From assembly GCF_030506325.1 (NCBI RefSeq), contig NZ_CP120683.1, forward strand, positions 6,638,501 through 6,702,500: DNA of 64,000 nt, given 5' to 3'. Below, in pieces: positions 4,301 to 55,189 of the stretch. The position numbers and the translations under genes are program-made. The first letter of the stretch is position 1, and each line of letters starts with the position of its first letter. Under the pieces are notes generated by a model that ran no database searches, was not told the DNA's origin, and worked only from the letters and a program-made list of their open reading frames with translations. Source of the stretch: Tunicatimonas pelagia (GTDB lineage Bacteria; Bacteroidota; Bacteroidia; Cytophagales; Cyclobacteriaceae).

Positions 4301-4459
4301 CGAGTGGTGTTCGACACGCTGAAATCGCTTCGTAAAGAAAACCGGATTGTGGGCATTATCTCCCACGTGGAAGATATGCAACACGAAATCGACGTGTACC
4401 TCACCATTACTCGCGACCGCCAGCACGGTAGCCAGATTCAAGCTAGCTGGGAAGCATGA
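1379..4459 (+). CDS. sbcC: Exonuclease SbcCD, ATPase subunit SbcC
   Basis: Rad50-like SMC-family ATPase that pairs with SbcD. Walker A (GSVGSGKS) is at residues 35-42. Two long Gln/Glu-rich coiled coils follow, interrupted near residue 510 by a zinc hook with the C-M-L-C pattern that dimerises the arms. The C-terminal half-ATPase carries the LSGGQ signature near residue 930 and Walker B (FFFLDEGFGSLD) near residue 957. The length of 1026 residues fits the family. The stop codon TGA (4457-4459) overlaps the first unit of a perfect heptamer array, so the repeat abuts the gene end exactly. Confidence 0.96.
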   Translation: MIPVHLTFSGLYSYQKKQSIDFEKLMAAQLFGIFGSVGSGKSSILEAIMFVLFDRSDRLNKSGDNRYYNMLNLQSTKLEIDFTFRANAKSNTKYRAYFSAQRKKRDFEKVEVKDRGFYEWKDDQWVPLPNGDAAQLLGITYENFMQTVIIPQGKFREFIDQRPNVRTQMLKDLFQLHRFDLGAKTGLLLRKTETAITDLQARLLEIGQISEEDIIEQQQVLKTAEAELLRKQQLAIQLDQQCQKLDALKKLLDKIDDTDTELKQLTAQSEHFNDKEKQLRAYTKAETFFNEKFRLLEDTTVEAQQAQQELDTLKGRIEVGSKKTEQLNQEVVQKKEAYEQREQIHQQCQDLLHLIEIKKAQPRRQQLTDSLTQIEQQQRALERSITEQQAQLEEYENQLLAAEDERNQWLVLKEVANWVQRREELVAEQQSVAKQVYQYEQQLSALAEKYESILTAHGWPESSQPDTLNDDFAQFQTNLHQQQDTANKELSELRLQERLTQAASQLTPGQPCMLCGSTEHPRIIHSPSVKKALSDKQEELAELRRKETSFRELQRDIQQLSSQDEAVRKMLGQEQKRAKELGEKQAKHEALHHWPEFKSLSGEEINRQLEIKYREQQKAQQWQQMRQQGQKKLKELQQKLEHQRSQQQTLLQQQTSLQATEEQRQSMLQVYQISDFQDTAVDKMQKTCHQKQTQLTNIEQQYEQAQQTLQEYQNALGLLEGRYEALQENQQKLSQKAESLNEEIQALCTEKEFDNLGEIRKLIDLELDIDAENQVILTYRNRRHNAEVTLHKLQAELQGQQYDPQEHRQLQLKAQSLTLEVRQQQEQCALLRQQIRDWQSKRARTQTIQQELAQQQLRESNLKELASLFRGSGFVKYASTVLLENLCLAANQRFMKLTQNSLSLELNEENEFVVRDYLNDGKTRLLKTLSGGQTFQASLCLALALAENVKSLNQAEQSFFFLDEGFGSLDRESLRVVFDTLKSLRKENRIVGIISHVEDMQHEIDVYLTITRDRQHGSQIQASWEA

Positions 4460-4492
4460 GCAATGAGCAATGAGCAATGAGCAATGAGCAAT
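4458..4492. repeat. Heptamer tandem array (GAGCAAT)x5
   Basis: Five perfect copies of GAGCAAT lie end to end, starting inside the sbcC stop codon, followed by a degenerate AGCAAAT. One of a series of period-7 arrays in this window whose sequences differ but whose unit length does not. Confidence 0.95.
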
Positions 4493-4543
4493 TAGCAAAT
4501 TTACGATGTTCAAGTTTGGAAAAACAACGCATCAAAAATAACT

Positions 4544-12521: not shown

Positions 12522-15095
12522 ATGATACCTCGCTTTCTGTTTTTCTGCATTGGCAGTTTATGTATTCTGTTCAACACTTCTTTCGCTCAGGCACCCAAAA
12601 AGCTATCAGCTAGTGAGGTTCAGCTAGCACTAAAAAAACTTAATGTACTAGGGAGCGCTTTGTACGTAGCCGCTCATCCCGATGATGAGAACCAAGTAGT
12701 GATTGGTTATATGTCGCAGGTAGAGCTGCTAAATACGGGTTATTTGTCCCTAACTCGGGGTGACGGAGGGCAAAATCTCATTGGTTCGGAAATTCGTGAG
12801 CGACTGGGTGTAGTACGGACACAGGAACTTATTCAGGCTCGTAGCGTAGACGGCAGCCAGCAATTCTTCACCCGAGCCATTGACTTTGGCTACTCCAAAA
12901 CTTCTGATGAAACCCTTAAACTCTGGGAACGAGAAAAAATTCTCTCGGATGTGGTGTGGGTGATTCGGCAGTTCCGTCCCGATGTAATCATCACTCGCTT
13001 TCCTCCCGATTCACGAGCGGGGCACGGTCATCATACTACTTCCGGTATTCTGGCTGCAGAAGCTTTTGATTTAGCTGGTGACCCTGATCAATTTTCTAAT
13101 CAACTGGAGTACGTAGAAGCTTGGCAACCCACCCGGTTGATGCTGAATGAAACTAGTTGGTTTACCAGTAAAATTGATTCTATTGCTACGGCTAACGATT
13201 CTGTGTTGGTAGTAGATATGGGAGTGTATCTGCCGCTACTTGGGAAATCGGTACCTGAGATTGCTTCTCTGAGCCGTAGCAAGCACGAATCACAGGGATT
13301 TGGTTCTACCGGAGTCCGGGGGCAGCGGGTAGAATACTTTCGCCACGTGAAGGGCAAAATGGCTAAAGACCATCCGTTGGATAATATTCCCACTAGTTGG
13401 TCGCGTTTAGAGGGCGGTGCGGTAGTGGGAGAGTTACTTCAACAAGCTTACCAGAATTACAACCCTGAGCAGCCGTCGGCTATTGTACCTACGCTATTAC
13501 AGGCCTACGAAGCTCTGAACAAACTGCCCGAAGGGTACTGGAAGCAAGTAAAAGCGAAGGAACTCACTACCGTCATTCAGGCTTGTCTGGGCCTATACGC
13601 CGAAGTGCGGAGCGGTACCAACGCTTTAGTTCGCCGGTTTCGCGGAGCGCAAACCCGACCGGATATTGCTGAATATTCGGCTACGCCGGGAGATAGCATC
13701 ACGCTTAATTTTGAAGTAATTCAGCGAAATCCTCAAGTTGAGGTACAGCTAAACAAAATTGAAGTAGCCCAGATTGGTTATGATACCTTGATTAGTAATG
13801 CGCTAGAAGACAATGCGTTAGTAGCGTTCAACAAACAAGTAAAACTGCCGGATAGTCTTCCTTACACCGAGCCGTACTGGCTTCGAGCGAAGAATGACGG
13901 TTTTACTTTTTCAGTAGATGATCAAATGTTGATTGGTCGCGATGAAACCCCGCCCGCTTTAGAAGCAGCTTTTTCGTTTACGGTAAACGGACAGGCATTA
14001 AACCTTACTAGTCCGGTTATTTACAAGAGAAACGATCCTCGCAAGGGTGAGATGTATCGGCCTTTCGTGATTATTCCTCCGGTGCTGGTAAGCCTTCCAG
14101 AAAATGTTTACGTGTTTGCTTCGGCAGAGTCACAAACGGTTACCGCCACGGTAGAAGCGGGGCACTCGAATGTTCAAGGCAATGTATCTTTGAAGGTTCC
14201 CTCGGGTTGGTCGGTAAGTCCGGCGCAGTATAATTACGCTATTGCCCTCAAAGGACAAGAGCAGGAGTTCACCTTTACCGTGACGCCACCCACCGGAGCG
14301 AGTACCGGAAAGGTTCAGGTAATGGCCGAGTACAAAGAACAATCTTACCAACAGAGTATGGTAACTATTGACTACGAGCACATTCCCACCCAAACATTGC
14401 TGCCGCTCGCCACCGCCAATTTGGTGAAACTGGACATTCGGAAAGAAGGAAATCTGGTTGGCTATGTGATGGGAGCTGGAGATGACGTACCCAAGGCTCT
14501 GAAGCAAATCGGCTACGAAGTGGCTTTGCTGGAGGAGGAAGATATTCGGATGCCCTACTTATCAAACTTTGATGCTATTATCATCGGAATTCGAGCCTAC
14601 AATACGGTAAACTGGTTGCGCTACCGCAATGATCGGTTATTAGAATATGTAGAGCAGGGAGGAACTTTAATTACCCAGTACAACACCAGTTCTCGCCTCG
14701 TGATGCAAGACTTTTCTCCCTATTCCTTGCAAATGTCCCGTGACCGAGTATCCGACGAAACTGCTGAGGTACGAATTCTGGCTCCCAGCCATCCGGTGCT
14801 CAATACTCCTAACGAAATTACTGTCAATGACTTTCAGGGTTGGGTGCAGGAGCGGGGGTTGTACTTCCCCAACGAGTGGGATGAGAAATTTACCCCAATT
14901 CTTTCCATGAATGATCCGGGGGAAGAAGAAAAGAAGGGAAGTTTGTTGGTAGCCCCCTACGGCAAAGGCCACTACATTTACACTGGTATTTCTTTCTTTC
15001 GTGAACTACCCGCCGGAGTACCCGGAGCCTACCGTCTACTTACCAATCTGATATCAGTGGGTAAAGATGAGCAGATAGAACGGGGAAATGAATGA
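12522..15095 (+). CDS. PIG-L family deacetylase (LmbE-like), secreted
   Basis: A large secreted PIG-L/LmbE-type enzyme that would remove N-acetyl groups from GlcNAc-containing substrates. The ATG at 12522 is preferred over an in-frame GTG at 12516 because it gives a clean signal peptide. The zinc motif A-H-P-D-D-E is at residues 51-56 and the partner histidines G-H-G-H-H occur near residue 166. After about residue 370 the protein becomes beta-rich (NEW3/Ig-like region) and ends in an N-I-I/Y-x-G-T-L-like glutamine-amidotransferase-type fold (about 640-855). Multidomain architectures of this type are common in Bacteroidota. It is followed 93 bases later by the glycosidase gene on the same strand, so the two may serve one glycan pathway. 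Confidence 0.85.
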   Translation: MIPRFLFFCIGSLCILFNTSFAQAPKKLSASEVQLALKKLNVLGSALYVAAHPDDENQVVIGYMSQVELLNTGYLSLTRGDGGQNLIGSEIRERLGVVRTQELIQARSVDGSQQFFTRAIDFGYSKTSDETLKLWEREKILSDVVWVIRQFRPDVIITRFPPDSRAGHGHHTTSGILAAEAFDLAGDPDQFSNQLEYVEAWQPTRLMLNETSWFTSKIDSIATANDSVLVVDMGVYLPLLGKSVPEIASLSRSKHESQGFGSTGVRGQRVEYFRHVKGKMAKDHPLDNIPTSWSRLEGGAVVGELLQQAYQNYNPEQPSAIVPTLLQAYEALNKLPEGYWKQVKAKELTTVIQACLGLYAEVRSGTNALVRRFRGAQTRPDIAEYSATPGDSITLNFEVIQRNPQVEVQLNKIEVAQIGYDTLISNALEDNALVAFNKQVKLPDSLPYTEPYWLRAKNDGFTFSVDDQMLIGRDETPPALEAAFSFTVNGQALNLTSPVIYKRNDPRKGEMYRPFVIIPPVLVSLPENVYVFASAESQTVTATVEAGHSNVQGNVSLKVPSGWSVSPAQYNYAIALKGQEQEFTFTVTPPTGASTGKVQVMAEYKEQSYQQSMVTIDYEHIPTQTLLPLATANLVKLDIRKEGNLVGYVMGAGDDVPKALKQIGYEVALLEEEDIRMPYLSNFDAIIIGIRAYNTVNWLRYRNDRLLEYVEQGGTLITQYNTSSRLVMQDFSPYSLQMSRDRVSDETAEVRILAPSHPVLNTPNEITVNDFQGWVQERGLYFPNEWDEKFTPILSMNDPGEEEKKGSLLVAPYGKGHYIYTGISFFRELPAGVPGAYRLLTNLISVGKDEQIERGNE

Positions 15096-50565: not shown

Positions 50566-51438
50566 ATGAAACTAGAAATACATAATCTCTCTAAAACCTA
50601 CTCTAATGGCGTCCAAGCGTTAAAGGGTGTTAGTCTTACCATCGGTAAAGGCATGTTTGGTCTGCTCGGTCAGAACGGAGCGGGTAAATCTACTTTGATG
50701 CGTACGATTGCTACCTTACAGGATGCCGATACGGGCATCATCCACTTTAATGGCGTTGATGTCGCCAAAGAACCTGAAAAGCTCAGAAAAACCCTTGGTT
50801 ACTTACCCCAAGAGTTTGGCGTTTACCCTAACGTTACTGCGGAAGAATTGCTTTTGCATATCGCCGACATGAAAGGAATTGTCCATAAGGGAGAGCGGAA
50901 GGATACAGTAGAGGCACTGCTCCAAAAAGTCAATCTGTACGATGTTAGAAATAAAAAATTGGATGGTTACTCGGGGGGGATGAAACAACGGTTTGGCATT
51001 GCCCAGGCACTGATTGGAAACCCCGATTTAATTATTGTGGACGAACCAACGGCAGGCCTGGACCCGATGGAAAGAAACCGCTTTTACAACTTACTTTCTG
51101 AACTGGGAGAAGACGCCGTAGTCATCCTGTCTACTCACATCGTGGAAGATGTAAGTACGCTTTGCACCGATATGGCCATTATCGGCCAAGGCCGGGTAGT
51201 ACTTACGGGCAAGCCTCACGAAGTAGAAGAGTCCCTTCGGGGAAAACTCTATGAAATGCCAGTGAGCAAAGATGAGCTCCCCCGTTACCAGGAAAAGTAT
51301 AACGTCATCTCTCATCGCTTTTTTGCTGGAAAAATGATGATTACCGTGCTGACGGATGACGTTTTATCTAATGGGTTTGATGCTAAAGCCCCTTCTCTGG
51401 AAGATGCCTACTTTAATATTTTGGCTACGAGTAGTTGA
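50566..51438 (+). CDS. ABC transporter ATP-binding protein (ABC-2 type)
   Basis: A 290-residue ATPase: Walker A G-Q-N-G-A-G-K-S at residues 35-42, signature Y-S-G-G-M-K-Q-R near 135, Walker B L-I-I-V-D-E-P-T-A-G-L-D near 155 and the H-loop S-T-H-I-V-E-D. It pairs with the permease-peptidase fusion at 51932, from which it is separated by an inserted four-helix-bundle gene and repeats. Confidence 0.92.
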   Translation: MKLEIHNLSKTYSNGVQALKGVSLTIGKGMFGLLGQNGAGKSTLMRTIATLQDADTGIIHFNGVDVAKEPEKLRKTLGYLPQEFGVYPNVTAEELLLHIADMKGIVHKGERKDTVEALLQKVNLYDVRNKKLDGYSGGMKQRFGIAQALIGNPDLIIVDEPTAGLDPMERNRFYNLLSELGEDAVVILSTHIVEDVSTLCTDMAIIGQGRVVLTGKPHEVEESLRGKLYEMPVSKDELPRYQEKYNVISHRFFAGKMMITVLTDDVLSNGFDAKAPSLEDAYFNILATSS

Positions 51439-51447
51439 GCGAGGAGA

Positions 51448-51503
51448 AGTTGCGAGTTATGAGCTACGAGCTGCATACAACTCGTAACTCAAAACTCGTA
51501 ACT
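51448..51503. repeat. Long hairpin made of heptamers, left border of the 4HB gene
   Basis: Arms of 26 nt (51448-51473 and 51478-51503) match at 22 positions around the 4-nt loop CATA. The right arm consists of the heptamers CGTAACT, CAAAACT, CGTAACT; the left arm is their inverted copy. It begins 9 bases after the ABC ATPase stop and ends 8 bases before the 4HB start. Confidence 0.85.
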
Positions 51504-51511
51504 TCACGCTT

Positions 51512-51871
51512 ATGAAGAATTATAAAGAACTATTGATCTGGCAAAAAGGAATGGATATCTGGAAAGAGACCTACCAGCTTAGCAAAGAACTTCCTCGTGA
51601 AGAAAAATACGGTCTGATTAGCCAAGTTCAGAGAGCCTCGGCTTCTATCCCGGCTAATATAGCTGAAGGAAGTGCGAGAGAAAGTACTAAAAACTATCAT
51701 TATTTTCTTCAGATAGCTTTAGGCTCATGCTTTGAATTAGAGACATTTATTATAGGTATGGTTGAAATGCAGATGGTAGATAAAGTAAAAGCTGATGAAC
51801 TTCTATCCAAAATTGATGAGGAACAAAAGATGATTATGTCATTCATGAAAAAAGTAAAATCCCCCTCGTAG
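51512..51871 (+). CDS. Four-helix-bundle protein of the 23S-rRNA-IVS/S23 family
   Basis: A 119-residue protein with the family's hallmarks: L-I-W-Q-K-G-M-D (about 7-14), S-Q-V-Q-R-A-S-A-S-I-P-A-N-I-A-E-G (about 37-53) and an L-x-I-A-L-G-S-C-F-E-L-E-T helix (about 67-80). The family was first seen as ORFs in intervening sequences of 23S rRNA genes and is related in fold to Avd accessory proteins of diversity-generating retroelements; its biochemical role is unknown. Here it is not in an rRNA gene but sits between the ATPase and permease genes of an ABC system, with heptamer repeats on both sides, so it looks inserted. Confidence 0.88.
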   Translation: MKNYKELLIWQKGMDIWKETYQLSKELPREEKYGLISQVQRASASIPANIAEGSARESTKNYHYFLQIALGSCFELETFIIGMVEMQMVDKVKADELLSKIDEEQKMIMSFMKKVKSPS

Positions 51872-51880
51872 CTAAAAGCA

Positions 51881-51920
51881 CACAACTCAAAACTCACAGC
51901 TCACAGCTCATAACTCAAAC
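51881..51920. repeat. Heptamer array, right border of the 4HB gene
   Basis: CACAACT, CAAAACT, CACAGCT, CACAGCT, CATAACT, CAAAC run in exact 7-bp phase, 9 bases after the 4HB stop. Unit type C-N-N-A-R-C-T is the same as in the right arm of the hairpin before the gene, in the same orientation. Confidence 0.85.
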
Positions 51921-51931
51921 CCCACCAACCT

Positions 51932-54900
51932 ATGATCTCAAGTATTATCAAACACGAACTAAAACAACGCTTATTCACTTGGGTATCGTTAATTTTCTTT
52001 CTGATGCTAGTATTCCAGGCTATTTGGTATACCAAAGGAGCGTTTGATTACTATGCCAACGAAAATGTGCTGATGAACGCCCCGAGTATTATCTACCGTA
52101 ATTACGCCGGAATGGGAATGCTCATGATCATCATCATCGCCATTGCCACCGGGGGAGTATTATACAAGGATATTCAGTACAAATCGGCTCAGTGGACCTA
52201 CGCTTTACCCATCAACGATAAACATTTTTTTATCGGACGCTTTTTGGCGGCATTTCTCTATCTCATCATTATCAGTACTGGGTTGATTGTCGGTCATTTT
52301 CTTCTTCCGTATTCCGGTATTGGCGTAGCCGAGCGTTTTGGCTCTGCCCCCGTCGGCCAAATATTTCACGGATGGCTGATGTTTACTGTCCCTAACCTGT
52401 TTGTTTATGTAGCACTGGTTTTTTTCTCCATCGTTTTTTCTAGACGCATTGCCACGAGCTACTTGGCTGTTTTTGCGGTTGTCATCACCTTTCTCATTGC
52501 CCAAACGTCCTACGAAACCGGAGGAGGGAATAATCTGCTAGCGTACCTCCTAGTAGACCCGGGTGGATATGTGGCCGCTCAATATTATGCTGACCTCCAG
52601 ACATCGATTGAGAAAAATACTGCCTACTTCCAACTGACCGGATATATTTTACAAAACAGACTGCTGTGGATTGGCTTAGCATTACTCCTTTCAATAGCGG
52701 CCTACTTTAAGTTCTCATTCAAGTATTTTATTCAAGCCGGAACGGATAAGTCTAAGAAAGTGAAGGAGGACAATAAAAGTATTCTTGCCAATGCTAGTAT
52801 ACAACTCCCGCAGGTGGTAAAGCAGTTTCGCATTCCCGATTTCTTGACAAAACTCTGGACGTTATCCAAGCTAGAGTTTCTCAATATTGTGCGTCCCACT
52901 TCTTTCAAGATCATCCTGGGAATTATCTTACTGATGGTCTTTTTGCAAAACGTAACTTGGAATGCTACTTTTTATATCGGTGAAGAATTGCCCATAAGCA
53001 GTAACATGACCTTCTTCCGCTTGCAGTGGGGAGTTTTTGTCAATATGTTGATTATGATTTGGGCGGGTGAGCTATTTTTCAAAGATAAAACGGTTAATAT
53101 CTGGCAGATTACCGATTCCTTACCCGTTCCAGTTTGGGTAACCCAACTGTCTCGCTTGGTGGCAGTTATGGGGCTTTCGCTGGTATTAAGCCTGAGTTTT
53201 ATTGCCGTTTCTATTTTCACGCAAATATTACTGGGTGGAATTTCCTACATCGATATGGGACGGTTTGCCGAAGACCTATTGCTCCATCGGTGGGCATTTT
53301 TAACATTTACGCTGTACACAGCTTTGGTCTTCTTCATTGCCGGTCTTACCTCCCAGCGAATAGTAACTCATATCTTGAGTGTTGGATTCTTTCTCTTTTT
53401 GATCGTTTCCTTTGATATGGGGATCATAGAAGATCTTCGCTTTGGCTATGCTTTGCCGCCCGGTATTGAAGATTTTTCTGAAACGAGCGGATACGGTATT
53501 TTTCAGCAATCGGCTAATTGGTTTTTCTTACTATGGCTCTCGCTAGCCGCCGCCTTGATAATGGCCGGGATATGGTTGTGGAAACGGGGCGCGGACAAGA
53601 AGTGGAGCAATCGTCTTTCTCTCAAAAGTGTACAGCTAAATCACGTCTCTAAAGTGGCCATGCTGATATGCTTGGGCGTATTCTTCGTGTTGATGTCATT
53701 TATTAGCAAAAACGTGTACAAAAGCGGAAACTTCACTCCTGAAGCTGAGGAAGAACGGCTGGATGCCACGTATGAGAAAAAGTATAAGTACTTAGAAGCG
53801 CGTTCTCAGCCAAAGTATGAGGCGGTAGATTTACAGCTAGACCTCTATCCATCAGAAAGAAAAGCATTGTATTCAGCCGATATAACTCTCACTAATTCTT
53901 CTGGTACAGATACCCTGTTCTTGAACTGGGAGGATTTTATTAACGTAAGCAGTCTCAAGCTAAATGATCAGGAACTGCAATTGGCGAAAGAAGATGAAGA
54001 GCAAAACCTAACGGCTTATCTCATTCCGAAGGCCGCTCGGACTGATAGTTTACTCCATCTATCGTTGGAAGCGGAGAAACAATACATTGGTTTTGTACAA
54101 AGTGATGCCCAAGCTGACTTAACCTACCAAGGGAGTTATGCGAGTGTACAGGATTTTCTTCCGGTAATTGGCTACGATAGCGAAAAAGAGCTAGTAGAAA
54201 ACCGGAAGAGAGAAGAGCAGGAGTTGACAAGACTTACCTCACGTATGGCACCCACCGATGACCCAGTGGCGAAGGCGCAAGATGCCTACGCCCCCGATGC
54301 TGGGCTGGTTAGAGGAAGTATCACCATCAGTACCGAAGCCGATCAAATACCATTTACCGCGGGAAAATTAATTAAAACGGAAGTGAATGAAGGGCGCACT
54401 ACTGCTTTTTACAACATTGAGAAACCGGCAGTATTCAACTGGCACCTAGGCTCTTCCGACTACGCTGTGGTGAACGGTGAGGCGAAAGGAGTAAACTATA
54501 CTATTCTTCATAAACCTTTTCATACGTTCAACATCGAGTTATACCAAGATGCTATGAACCAGGGCATTGGGTTCATGCAAGCACATTTCGGGACGGAAAC
54601 AGTAGCGGATAAGTTACAATTGGTGGAAATTCACCGTTGGCAAGACCCGGCTTACACCTTTGCCAATACGATTGTTTTGTCCGAAAAAGAAGGTTGGGTG
54701 GCCGATACCGAAGGGCTACAAGAAAAAGCTTACATCTACCAAACCGTCGGCAGTGGTTTAGCTAGTCTGTGGGTACAGCAACAACTTCGCGTGGCTAATG
54801 TGCAGGGAGCCGATATGTTGACCAAAGCATTACCCGAAGCAATAGGTTTGCAGTTTGTAGAGGAAACCTTTGGTGAAGAAGCCATGCAACTGCTGATAGA

Positions 54901-55189
54901 CAAGAAAATGGATAAATACGCCAAAGACCGAAACAACGAACCCAATACGGAACCTGCCCTCTTATATGCCGACGGAGCGGAGTACTTAGAAATAAACAAG
55001 GGATCCGTAGCCTTGTATCAGCTTAGTAGCAAGGTAGGAAAAGAAACTTTTATAAAGTCCGTAACCGATTGGACACTTCGCGCAGAAGGTGAATACGCAA
55101 CATTTAAGAGCATGTACGATTACTTGTACTCAAAATTAAACGAAGAAGATAAAGAGCAAGCAAAGCAGGATTTTGAGCAAGCCGTTTGA
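51932..55189 (+). CDS. ABC-2 permease fused to a peptidase-M1-like domain lacking zinc ligands
   Basis: A 1085-residue fusion. Residues about 1-575 form two ABC-2 permease halves (roughly twelve helices). A further helix near 585-605 leads to a C-terminal extracytoplasmic M1-aminopeptidase-like region. Where active M1 members have H-E-x-x-H-x-W, this protein has S-G-L-A-S-L-W (about residues 938-950) just before the conserved N-V-Q-G motif, and the downstream Glu of the third ligand (S-E-x-L-A) is replaced by T-K-A-L-P. The peptidase is therefore probably inactive and may serve as a binding or gating domain. Its ATPase is at 50566. The region belongs to the iron-linked module 2. Confidence 0.82.
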   Translation: MISSIIKHELKQRLFTWVSLIFFLMLVFQAIWYTKGAFDYYANENVLMNAPSIIYRNYAGMGMLMIIIIAIATGGVLYKDIQYKSAQWTYALPINDKHFFIGRFLAAFLYLIIISTGLIVGHFLLPYSGIGVAERFGSAPVGQIFHGWLMFTVPNLFVYVALVFFSIVFSRRIATSYLAVFAVVITFLIAQTSYETGGGNNLLAYLLVDPGGYVAAQYYADLQTSIEKNTAYFQLTGYILQNRLLWIGLALLLSIAAYFKFSFKYFIQAGTDKSKKVKEDNKSILANASIQLPQVVKQFRIPDFLTKLWTLSKLEFLNIVRPTSFKIILGIILLMVFLQNVTWNATFYIGEELPISSNMTFFRLQWGVFVNMLIMIWAGELFFKDKTVNIWQITDSLPVPVWVTQLSRLVAVMGLSLVLSLSFIAVSIFTQILLGGISYIDMGRFAEDLLLHRWAFLTFTLYTALVFFIAGLTSQRIVTHILSVGFFLFLIVSFDMGIIEDLRFGYALPPGIEDFSETSGYGIFQQSANWFFLLWLSLAAALIMAGIWLWKRGADKKWSNRLSLKSVQLNHVSKVAMLICLGVFFVLMSFISKNVYKSGNFTPEAEEERLDATYEKKYKYLEARSQPKYEAVDLQLDLYPSERKALYSADITLTNSSGTDTLFLNWEDFINVSSLKLNDQELQLAKEDEEQNLTAYLIPKAARTDSLLHLSLEAEKQYIGFVQSDAQADLTYQGSYASVQDFLPVIGYDSEKELVENRKREEQELTRLTSRMAPTDDPVAKAQDAYAPDAGLVRGSITISTEADQIPFTAGKLIKTEVNEGRTTAFYNIEKPAVFNWHLGSSDYAVVNGEAKGVNYTILHKPFHTFNIELYQDAMNQGIGFMQAHFGTETVADKLQLVEIHRWQDPAYTFANTIVLSEKEGWVADTEGLQEKAYIYQTVGSGLASLWVQQQLRVANVQGADMLTKALPEAIGLQFVEETFGEEAMQLLIDKKMDKYAKDRNNEPNTEPALLYADGAEYLEINKGSVALYQLSSKVGKETFIKSVTDWTLRAEGEYATFKSMYDYLYSKLNEEDKEQAKQDFEQAV

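Follow-up and report, generated by a model that had tools for sequence, protein, structure and literature searches.

Proteins of the family PF05635 (S23) are encoded within intervening sequences (IVS) of 23S rRNA genes. According to the available excerpts of PMC4990558, S23 proteins have no known function and the origin of the rRNA IVS is unclear; the same excerpts describe one IVS with two or three direct heptameric repeats, depending on the strain, just upstream of its S23p ORF, and report a homopentamer for a Xanthomonas PF05635 protein. A likeness between PF05635 proteins and Avd of diversity-generating retroelements is noted in the accessible part of PMC10053308.

Heptamer arrays have been described separately. 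In the sections of PMC4692102 (Rehm et al. 2015) at hand, such arrays are said to be over-represented in many bacterial genomes and to be without a detailed literature, while the GGGAATC repeats of Xanthomonas and the GGGGA(T/C)T repeats of Nostoc are treated as quadruplex-forming; four units are preferred, convergent pairs number 70 and 75 in two genomes, and Xanthomonas campestris has 186 GGGAATC arrays with 70 cases of convergent pairs. The main text of that paper contains none of the terms S23, XCC0516, accB and accC. For REP-RAYT systems, the excerpted text of PMC3686654 reports switched repeats as well as orphan repeats after gene loss. In the open-licence PMC literature we found no link between PF05635 and heptamers other than the IVS remark in PMC4990558, which the excerpts of that paper do not generalise.

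The locus described here lies outside 23S rRNA, in a stretch of 64,000 nt from Tunicatimonas pelagia (the window), with an ABC ATPase gene on one side and a long ORF on the other. Its features are as follows:

50566-51438, plus strand: ABC transporter ATPase gene (PF00005), a host gene outside the element, with its 3' end within the outer stem
51420-51431, plus strand: left half of the outer closing stem, within the ATPase 3' end (inverted-repeat search, minimum-energy fold)
51446-51473, minus strand: left heptamer arm, with AACTCNN-type units on the minus strand; also the left arm of the local hairpin
51478-51505, plus strand: right arm of the local hairpin, heptamers forward (repeat search, fold)
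51512-51871, plus strand: 23S_rRNA_IVP / S23 four-helix-bundle gene (PF05635 profile, AF2 model, fold match)
51865-51876, plus strand: right half of the outer closing stem, covering the PF05635 stop codon (inverted-repeat search, minimum-energy fold)
51879-51919, plus strand: downstream heptamer array, the right arm, pairing with 51454-51473 (TRF, at 51875-51919, and inverted-repeat search)
51932-55189, plus strand: large ORF after the element, a host gene without a Pfam match (open reading frame)

The ORF at 51512-51871 (119 aa) scores 117.7 bits against the PF05635 profile (cut-off 33.8) and matches PF05635 alone in Pfam, which confirms the initial annotation in placing a 23S-IVS-family gene beside an ABC ATPase gene; the far neighbour, without a Pfam match, is probably a permease by its context and the place of its homologues. 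The AF2 model of the protein has four helices (pLDDT 94.1) and resembles 2gsc (TM 0.84-0.89, by query length) and 2rld (TM 0.81-0.85, again by query length), and more weakly Avd (8ub7 and 4dwl, TM about 0.8). We know of no nuclease motif in the PF05635 family. Against 50,697 phage records, the window protein gave no match at E 1e-5.

A 60-nt hairpin (51446-51505, 25 pairs in the predicted fold) stands upstream of the gene, as had been claimed, and a period-7 array of 41 nt (51879-51919) stands downstream. The heptamers were said to share one orientation, which is true of the hairpin's right arm and the downstream array, while the left arm, overlooked at first, is inverted: 51454-51473 and 51897-51916 are 90% complementary over 20 nt in inverted orientation. 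Since the hairpin's left arm is thus the inverse of the downstream array, the PF05635 gene sits between inverted heptamer arms. The spacing is indeed tight, although it comes by coordinates to 7, 6, 7 and 12 nt and not to the 9, 9 and 8 first given. In the minimum-energy fold, 51420-51431 base-pairs with 51865-51876. Terminal inverted repeats therefore enclose the ORF, as in an IVS, and the predicted fold of the element region beats 100 of 100 shuffles (z -2.9).

We conclude that the locus probably represents a widespread type of insertion element, in which inverted arrays of a heptamer that tends to be specific to the protein lineage close off a PF05635 gene. The argument is comparative: inverted arms, units that follow the protein, dispersed cognate arrays (same-unit gene-less arrays sampled in two genomes, plus pattern counts in 25), placement at gene junctions and co-directional neighbours all point towards such an element. 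The patchy occupation of the site and the association of the family with heptamers support the initial proposal of an insertion unit made up of the gene and its period-7 repeats.

To find the ATPase-permease junction in 59 relatives, the N-terminal 400 residues of the protein encoded downstream were used as query, and 22 relatives match at E 1e-20. By eye, 2 of 30 inspected junctions hold a PF05635 gene, namely the window's own and that of G034. The closest homologues (97%, 91%, 83%, 50% and 49% identical) have the junction without a PF05635 gene, and in the 97% identical case a single base separates the ATPase stop codon from the next start codon; the gene is hence not fixed at this place in all relatives. 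In G034, where the downstream protein is 30% identical, a different PF05635 gene with CTACTCA-type arms occupies the same junction. The initial annotation expected an empty site with a single array, and none is found in the five closest junctions, while at the junction of a 24% identical homologue (L101) an array of heptamers without a gene is seen by eye. The window copy is thus absent from close relatives, congeners among them, and the junction may have been hit at least twice, or emptied in between. Filled and empty junctions are too diverged for exact ends; neither a target-site duplication nor a precise pre-insertion site was found, and movement of the element is an inference.

A second junction was found in three states: the element with one unit in G261, a gene-less heptamer hairpin with another unit in the relatives G356, G365 and G300, and nearly empty in G354. 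At the L205 junction, relatives (L287, L288, L290, L291 and L292) hold other small inserted genes in place of the PF05635 element, among them two-gene sets that by eye are like toxin-antitoxin pairs.

The association with heptamers was examined in several locus sets. The window's own genome and 39 relatives gave 163 PF05635 matches, of which 83 were fetched and 81 analysed (left out were L013, the same broken gene as L011, and L044, with a short flank). Thirty further loci are among the best-scoring ones in 296 genomes drawn from the phylum, and the genus of G261 gave 90 matches, 88 of which were kept (L252, below the cut-off, and L238 were dropped). The window's phylum is thus represented by 199 loci. 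For G-labelled genomes, the names of phylum and genus are presumed from recognition of sequence or place. Flank-to-flank similarity in inverted orientation was judged by a score threshold of 16, set in this analysis.

The window's own genome has 13 PF05635 matches, four of them with internal stop codons; at about 4501-4502.5 kb of G000:C1 (L008, L011, L013) a stop-free PF05635 gene lies close to a broken one. An inverted score of at least 16 is reached by 7/12 of its PF05635 loci versus 0/237 control ORFs (11/227 in a second genome). Only 5/12 pass the lag-7/8 array threshold, so the arms in this genome are often decayed. Throughout the 199 loci, 134 have an inverted score of at least 16.

Among the 81 loci, flank self-similarity is in excess at lags 7, 14 and 21, and weakly at 28; no such excess at lags 7, 14 and 21 was found in distal flanks or gene bodies, the lag-7 values being 0.067 and 0.069 for the flanks versus -0.020 and -0.008 for the distal flanks. 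Cognate flanks pair in inverted orientation with a median of 17 versus 10 for swapped flanks, and 59/81 loci exceed the 95th percentile of the swaps, while direct-repeat flanks pass the same threshold at 12/81. The lag excess and the inverted flanks recur, more weakly, in the 30-locus set (13/30 over threshold). A strict single-flank test on 398 flanks passes 155 at lag 7 and 42 at lag 8, versus 0, 12, 3 and 3 at lags 5, 6, 9 and 10, respectively. In the arrays over threshold (155/398 flanks), the median number of units is 4.4 both upstream and downstream of the gene, with the middle half at 3.6-5.1; because the threshold removes short arrays, the fit of this median to one heptamer per subunit of a pentamer is suggestive only.

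A wider set was drawn from a scan of a genome collection with one Nostoc protein, which gave the best 80 of 371 relatives; removal of L312 and of three loci with short flanks, and addition of ten loci from cyanobacterial plasmids (10/25 records examined), left 86 loci, mostly of other phyla. They were grouped into cyanobacteria, alpha- and betaproteobacteria, planctomycetes, Chloroflexi and others, and in every group lag 7 gives the highest value of those tested (0.058-0.130). Cognate medians are 17-21 versus 9-12 for swapped flanks. The within-group swap test is weak, with 31/86 over the 95th percentile; by eye, arms share units. The ten plasmid loci give lag-7 values of 0.154 and 0.134. The expected flanking of PF05635 genes by heptamer arrays elsewhere is thus borne out in several locus sets. 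Two of the cyanobacterial plasmid genes, L297 (895-1263) and L301 (901-1260), are annotated between cas6 and cas4 in CRISPR operons; L297 adjoins cas1d of type I-D. The AAAAGCT and AAAAGCC arrays of L301 are very long, and its arms are, by eye, in direct orientation.

Arms were compared for 164/199 loci with an arm score of at least 14, two loci being at different sites when no neighbour matched within 1.1 kb. For different sites, arm similarity rises with protein identity, from 13.4 below 30% through 15.9 at 50-55% and 23.0 at 60-70% to 29.4 at 70-80% (7 pairs) and 34.7 above 80% (6 pairs). The overall correlation over 7915 pairs is small (Spearman 0.167; Mantel, 0/200 permutations as high), since most pairs are distant; the top identity bins hold few pairs. 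Resemblance of arms between related genes at separate sites is seen, for example, in L172/L173 and L210/L215, and one protein clade, by eye, keeps GGG-type units across phyla. In some clades the arm period is 8 (L116, L124, L142, L163, L167, L169, L180, L181; also L234-L237, L175, L187, L042 and L047). These comparisons suggest that heptamer units tend to be specific to the protein lineage. The initial annotation left open whether the unit targets or carries period-7 repeats; carrying is favoured, because the arms of related proteins remain alike from one site to another, and targeting is little supported.

Many PF05635 sites are inherited, as 37 shared-site groups contain 130/199 loci. At shared sites, cognate arms score 19.6 with each other versus 15.9 with the arms of orthologues and are the better match in 88/130 cases; hence, both arms tend to change together.

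The longest frame on each side was used to orient the neighbours of the 199 loci, of which 174 are ++, 12 --, 8 +- and 5 unassigned; the element almost always runs in the direction of both its neighbours. The location of elements between co-directional genes and near start codons, and the co-variation of units with the protein, would also be expected of a regulatory network, in which a TRAP-like RNA-binding protein takes one repeat per subunit, the arms are autoregulatory and the gene-less arrays are targets in other operons. In the excerpted texts, TAACTGA heptamers are proposed to act post-transcriptionally (PMC4679880), and most of the Xanthomonas and Nostoc repeats studied are transcribed (PMC4692102). 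We consider this the main rival, albeit an unlikely one, given that the own genome's 13 matches have different units and four have internal stops, that presence at homologous junctions is patchy, and that different units at one junction would be odd for conserved regulation. Regulation and a mobile element are not mutually exclusive.

The proposed insertion element was put to a prediction fixed before looking. XCC0516 of Xanthomonas campestris is a PF05635 protein (2gsc), and genes of its type were predicted to carry GGGAATC arms. A match to the 2gsc stretch is present in 85/198 genomes of the xanthomonad family. Thirty loci were fetched and 28 anchored on a protein motif, which the two excluded loci, L400 and L417, do not have. 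Closeness to XCC0516 was judged by identity to the 77-residue 2gsc stretch: two genomes reach 91-92%, and the others of the 30 reach 71-83%. Both arms carry the predicted unit in 22/28 loci. Over all 28, GGGANTC occurs 32 times upstream and never reversed, and GANTCCC 49 times downstream and never reversed; the background is 14 in 65,746 nt elsewhere. All 28 are at one common junction (27 by pattern, L389 by eye), so they represent one lineage and not independent insertions; L413, L414 and L416 have a different unit at that junction. The gene names accB-accC, carA-carB and sdhA-sdhB, and the word operon, are our presumption from sequence or place.

Doublets of GGGAWTC (overlaps counted) number 81-230 in 10/10 chosen genomes with such a gene, versus 0, 0, 0, 1, 0, 0, 12, 1, 4, 0, 1 and 0 in 12 genomes without a detected gene. 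G488 and G392, where the gene at the common junction has GATTCAC arms, have 30 and 50 GGGAWTC doublets, respectively, and G408 has 1. The reversed control pattern of GGGAWTC occurs twice in G382 and nowhere else among the 25. GATTCAC doublets number 60 in G488, 383 in G392 and 0 in the other 23 genomes. The genomes were hand-chosen, and we regard the counts as strong support, not phylogenetically corrected, for the link between gene and repeat. The genome with 12 doublets and no detected PF05635 gene is G379, in which near-perfect gene-less heptamer hairpins adjoin genes (L421, L422, L423). Further PF05635 genes of G488 and G392 were considered as the source of their GGGAWTC arrays and rejected, as their arms are GGGACTC or GGTGAGC. 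L425 and L427 have no clear arms by eye. At a second xanthomonad junction, presumably resembling carA-carB, the arms are GGGACTC, GGGACCG or mixed (L419, L420, L426, L429, L430), which shows that the unit drifts at a single site.

Arrays of the same units also occur without a gene. In 464 kb of the own genome, there are 20 period-7 arrays, whereas each remaining lag between 4 and 13 has 0 to 4; the multiples 14 and 21 follow period 7. An N-run in L158 was set aside in this count and in array matching. Fourteen gene-less arrays match the genome's own flanks at 22.2 versus 14.0 (sd 2.6) for foreign ones (6/2000), and for 13/14 the own 12 loci give a higher score than foreign sets of 12. The 21 arrays in 400 kb of G261 give 22.1 versus 15.2 (sd 1.6; 0/2000). 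Against congener flanks the G261 arrays have a mean of 17.9 (16/2000), and for 13/21 the best match among 76 congener loci exceeds that among the own 12, an uneven comparison. Gene-less arrays of period 8 number 10 in G261 (one like a T run), where two PF05635 genes have this period, and 1 in the own-genome sample. Four such arrays lie in the window:

4456-4498, plus strand: gene-less heptamer array, its unit matching the flanks of L005, another PF05635 gene of the genome
4544-4575, plus strand: gene-less TCCGGTC heptamer array, matching the flanks of L004, of the same genome
17262-17298, plus strand: gene-less heptamer array of GAGACCG type, matching the flanks of L004
39914-39945, plus strand: gene-less array of ATTATTC type shortly before a start codon, resembling the L006 arms by eye and below the matching threshold

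A nearby inverted partner above null was found for 4/41 gene-less arrays. Most are single, and the notion that they are inverted pairs by rule was dropped. In L158, two CATCAAT arrays (143-223 and 13722-13778), 13.6 kb apart, are preceded by the same ten bases, hinting that an array may have been copied with its edge.

It is conceivable that the gene inserts into heptamer arrays already present, so that its arms derive from the target. Gene-less arrays are common in the two sampled genomes, the L004/L034 junction looks nested by eye, its outer array and its inner arms having different units, and the gene-less array of L101 stands at a distant homologue of the window junction. We nevertheless find this improbable, because the arms of related proteins are alike at different sites, because the GGG-type clade spans phyla by eye, and because arms are inverted while most gene-less arrays are single.

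RNA-based mobility by a reverse transcriptase, as for Avd in diversity-generating retroelements, would account for the shared fold (TM about 0.8), the strong co-directional bias and the IVS-like stem. An RVT_1 match is present in 18/39 relatives and was not found in the own genome; G000 (the own genome), G018, G019, G020 and G033 are all without one despite 13, 5, 8, 8 and 8 PF05635 matches, respectively. A standing need for such a reverse transcriptase is thus unlikely, and while past movement of this kind may have occurred, we hold this explanation to be very doubtful. Finally, a lack of any present mobility, with old copies inherited and arms kept alike by slippage and template switching between them, would agree with the 37 shared-site groups (130/199 loci) and the better cognate arms there (88/130), which correction between arms would also produce, yet it is scarcely credible because it yields neither dispersed same-unit arrays nor similar arms at different sites.

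For the insertion element that we favour, a mechanism may be sketched. A ring-forming four-helix-bundle protein would bind heptamer arrays in single strands or hairpins, each subunit perhaps taking one heptamer, and would bring the two arms together; enzymes of host replication and repair would then make copies at new gene junctions, often of the arms and rarely of the entire unit. Such a system would work like REP-RAYT with a binding protein in place of the transposase, and the 23S rRNA IVS would descend from copies inserted into rRNA genes. Once transcribed, the two arms could close an IVS-like stem around the gene, which may limit harm to the host, and the element RNA might be excised, as an IVS is by RNase III.

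A broader proposition, to which we would give even chances, is that PF05635 (S23) proteins are the spreading factors of pan-bacterial selfish heptamer repeats, each lineage recognising its own 7- (or 8-) base unit. The rRNA IVS and the heptamer arrays of cyanobacteria, Xanthomonas and Bacteroidota would then belong to one mobile repeat system, which has a sequence-specific ring protein and no transposase. If the link between the protein family and heptamers holds, one small protein family would explain heptamer arrays and the origin of IVS in several phyla, and each protein lineage could be listed with the heptamer that it is predicted to target. The nature of the heptamer repeats and the function of S23 would become directly testable by binding assay, on a natural series of proteins with changed repeat specificity and even a changed period (7 or 8).

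Of the known systems, TAACTGA repeats of Beggiatoaceae, cyanobacteria and Bacteroidetes are likewise intergenic heptamer arrays near start codons, as far as the excerpts of PMC4679880 describe them; two TAACTGA-like heptamers beside a PF05635 gene were found at 1/288 loci (L115), and a link is unsupported. Insertion sequences and MITEs differ in that the window gene matches PF05635 alone, without a transposase catalytic domain. Avd has the same fold (8ub7, 4dwl), whereas genomes rich in PF05635 genes can be without an RVT_1 match. The GGGAATC repeats of Xanthomonas have their counterpart in the GGGANTC unit of xanthomonad PF05635 arms.

The 23S rRNA IVS with an S23p ORF share with the window locus the protein family, the ORF in a loop and the terminal inverted repeats that close a stem; they differ in that elements of the window type stand between protein genes and have heptamer arms that follow the lineage, with the unit dispersed through the genome. 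REP-RAYT systems likewise have a gene within inverted repeat copies, many gene-less cognate copies and a repeat abundance tied to the resident gene. Dispersed gene-less cognate repeats are found for PF05635 too, with G379, G488 and G392 as exceptions, and even these resemble those of REP-RAYT, to judge by the excerpts on that system: orphan repeats in G379, switched repeats in G488 and G392. RAYT, however, has a catalytic tyrosine and metal-binding histidines, whereas the PF05635 protein is a four-helix bundle with no known nuclease, and REPs are GTAG/GTGG-tagged palindromes, whereas visual inspection and the lag values show PF05635 arms to be tandem 7- or 8-mers. By analogy, the PF05635 element would therefore work like REP-RAYT without being a member of it. 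Taken together, the element appears to be of IVS type outside rRNA and REP-RAYT-like without a transposase, in which the protein would bind the repeats and thereby take part in moving them.
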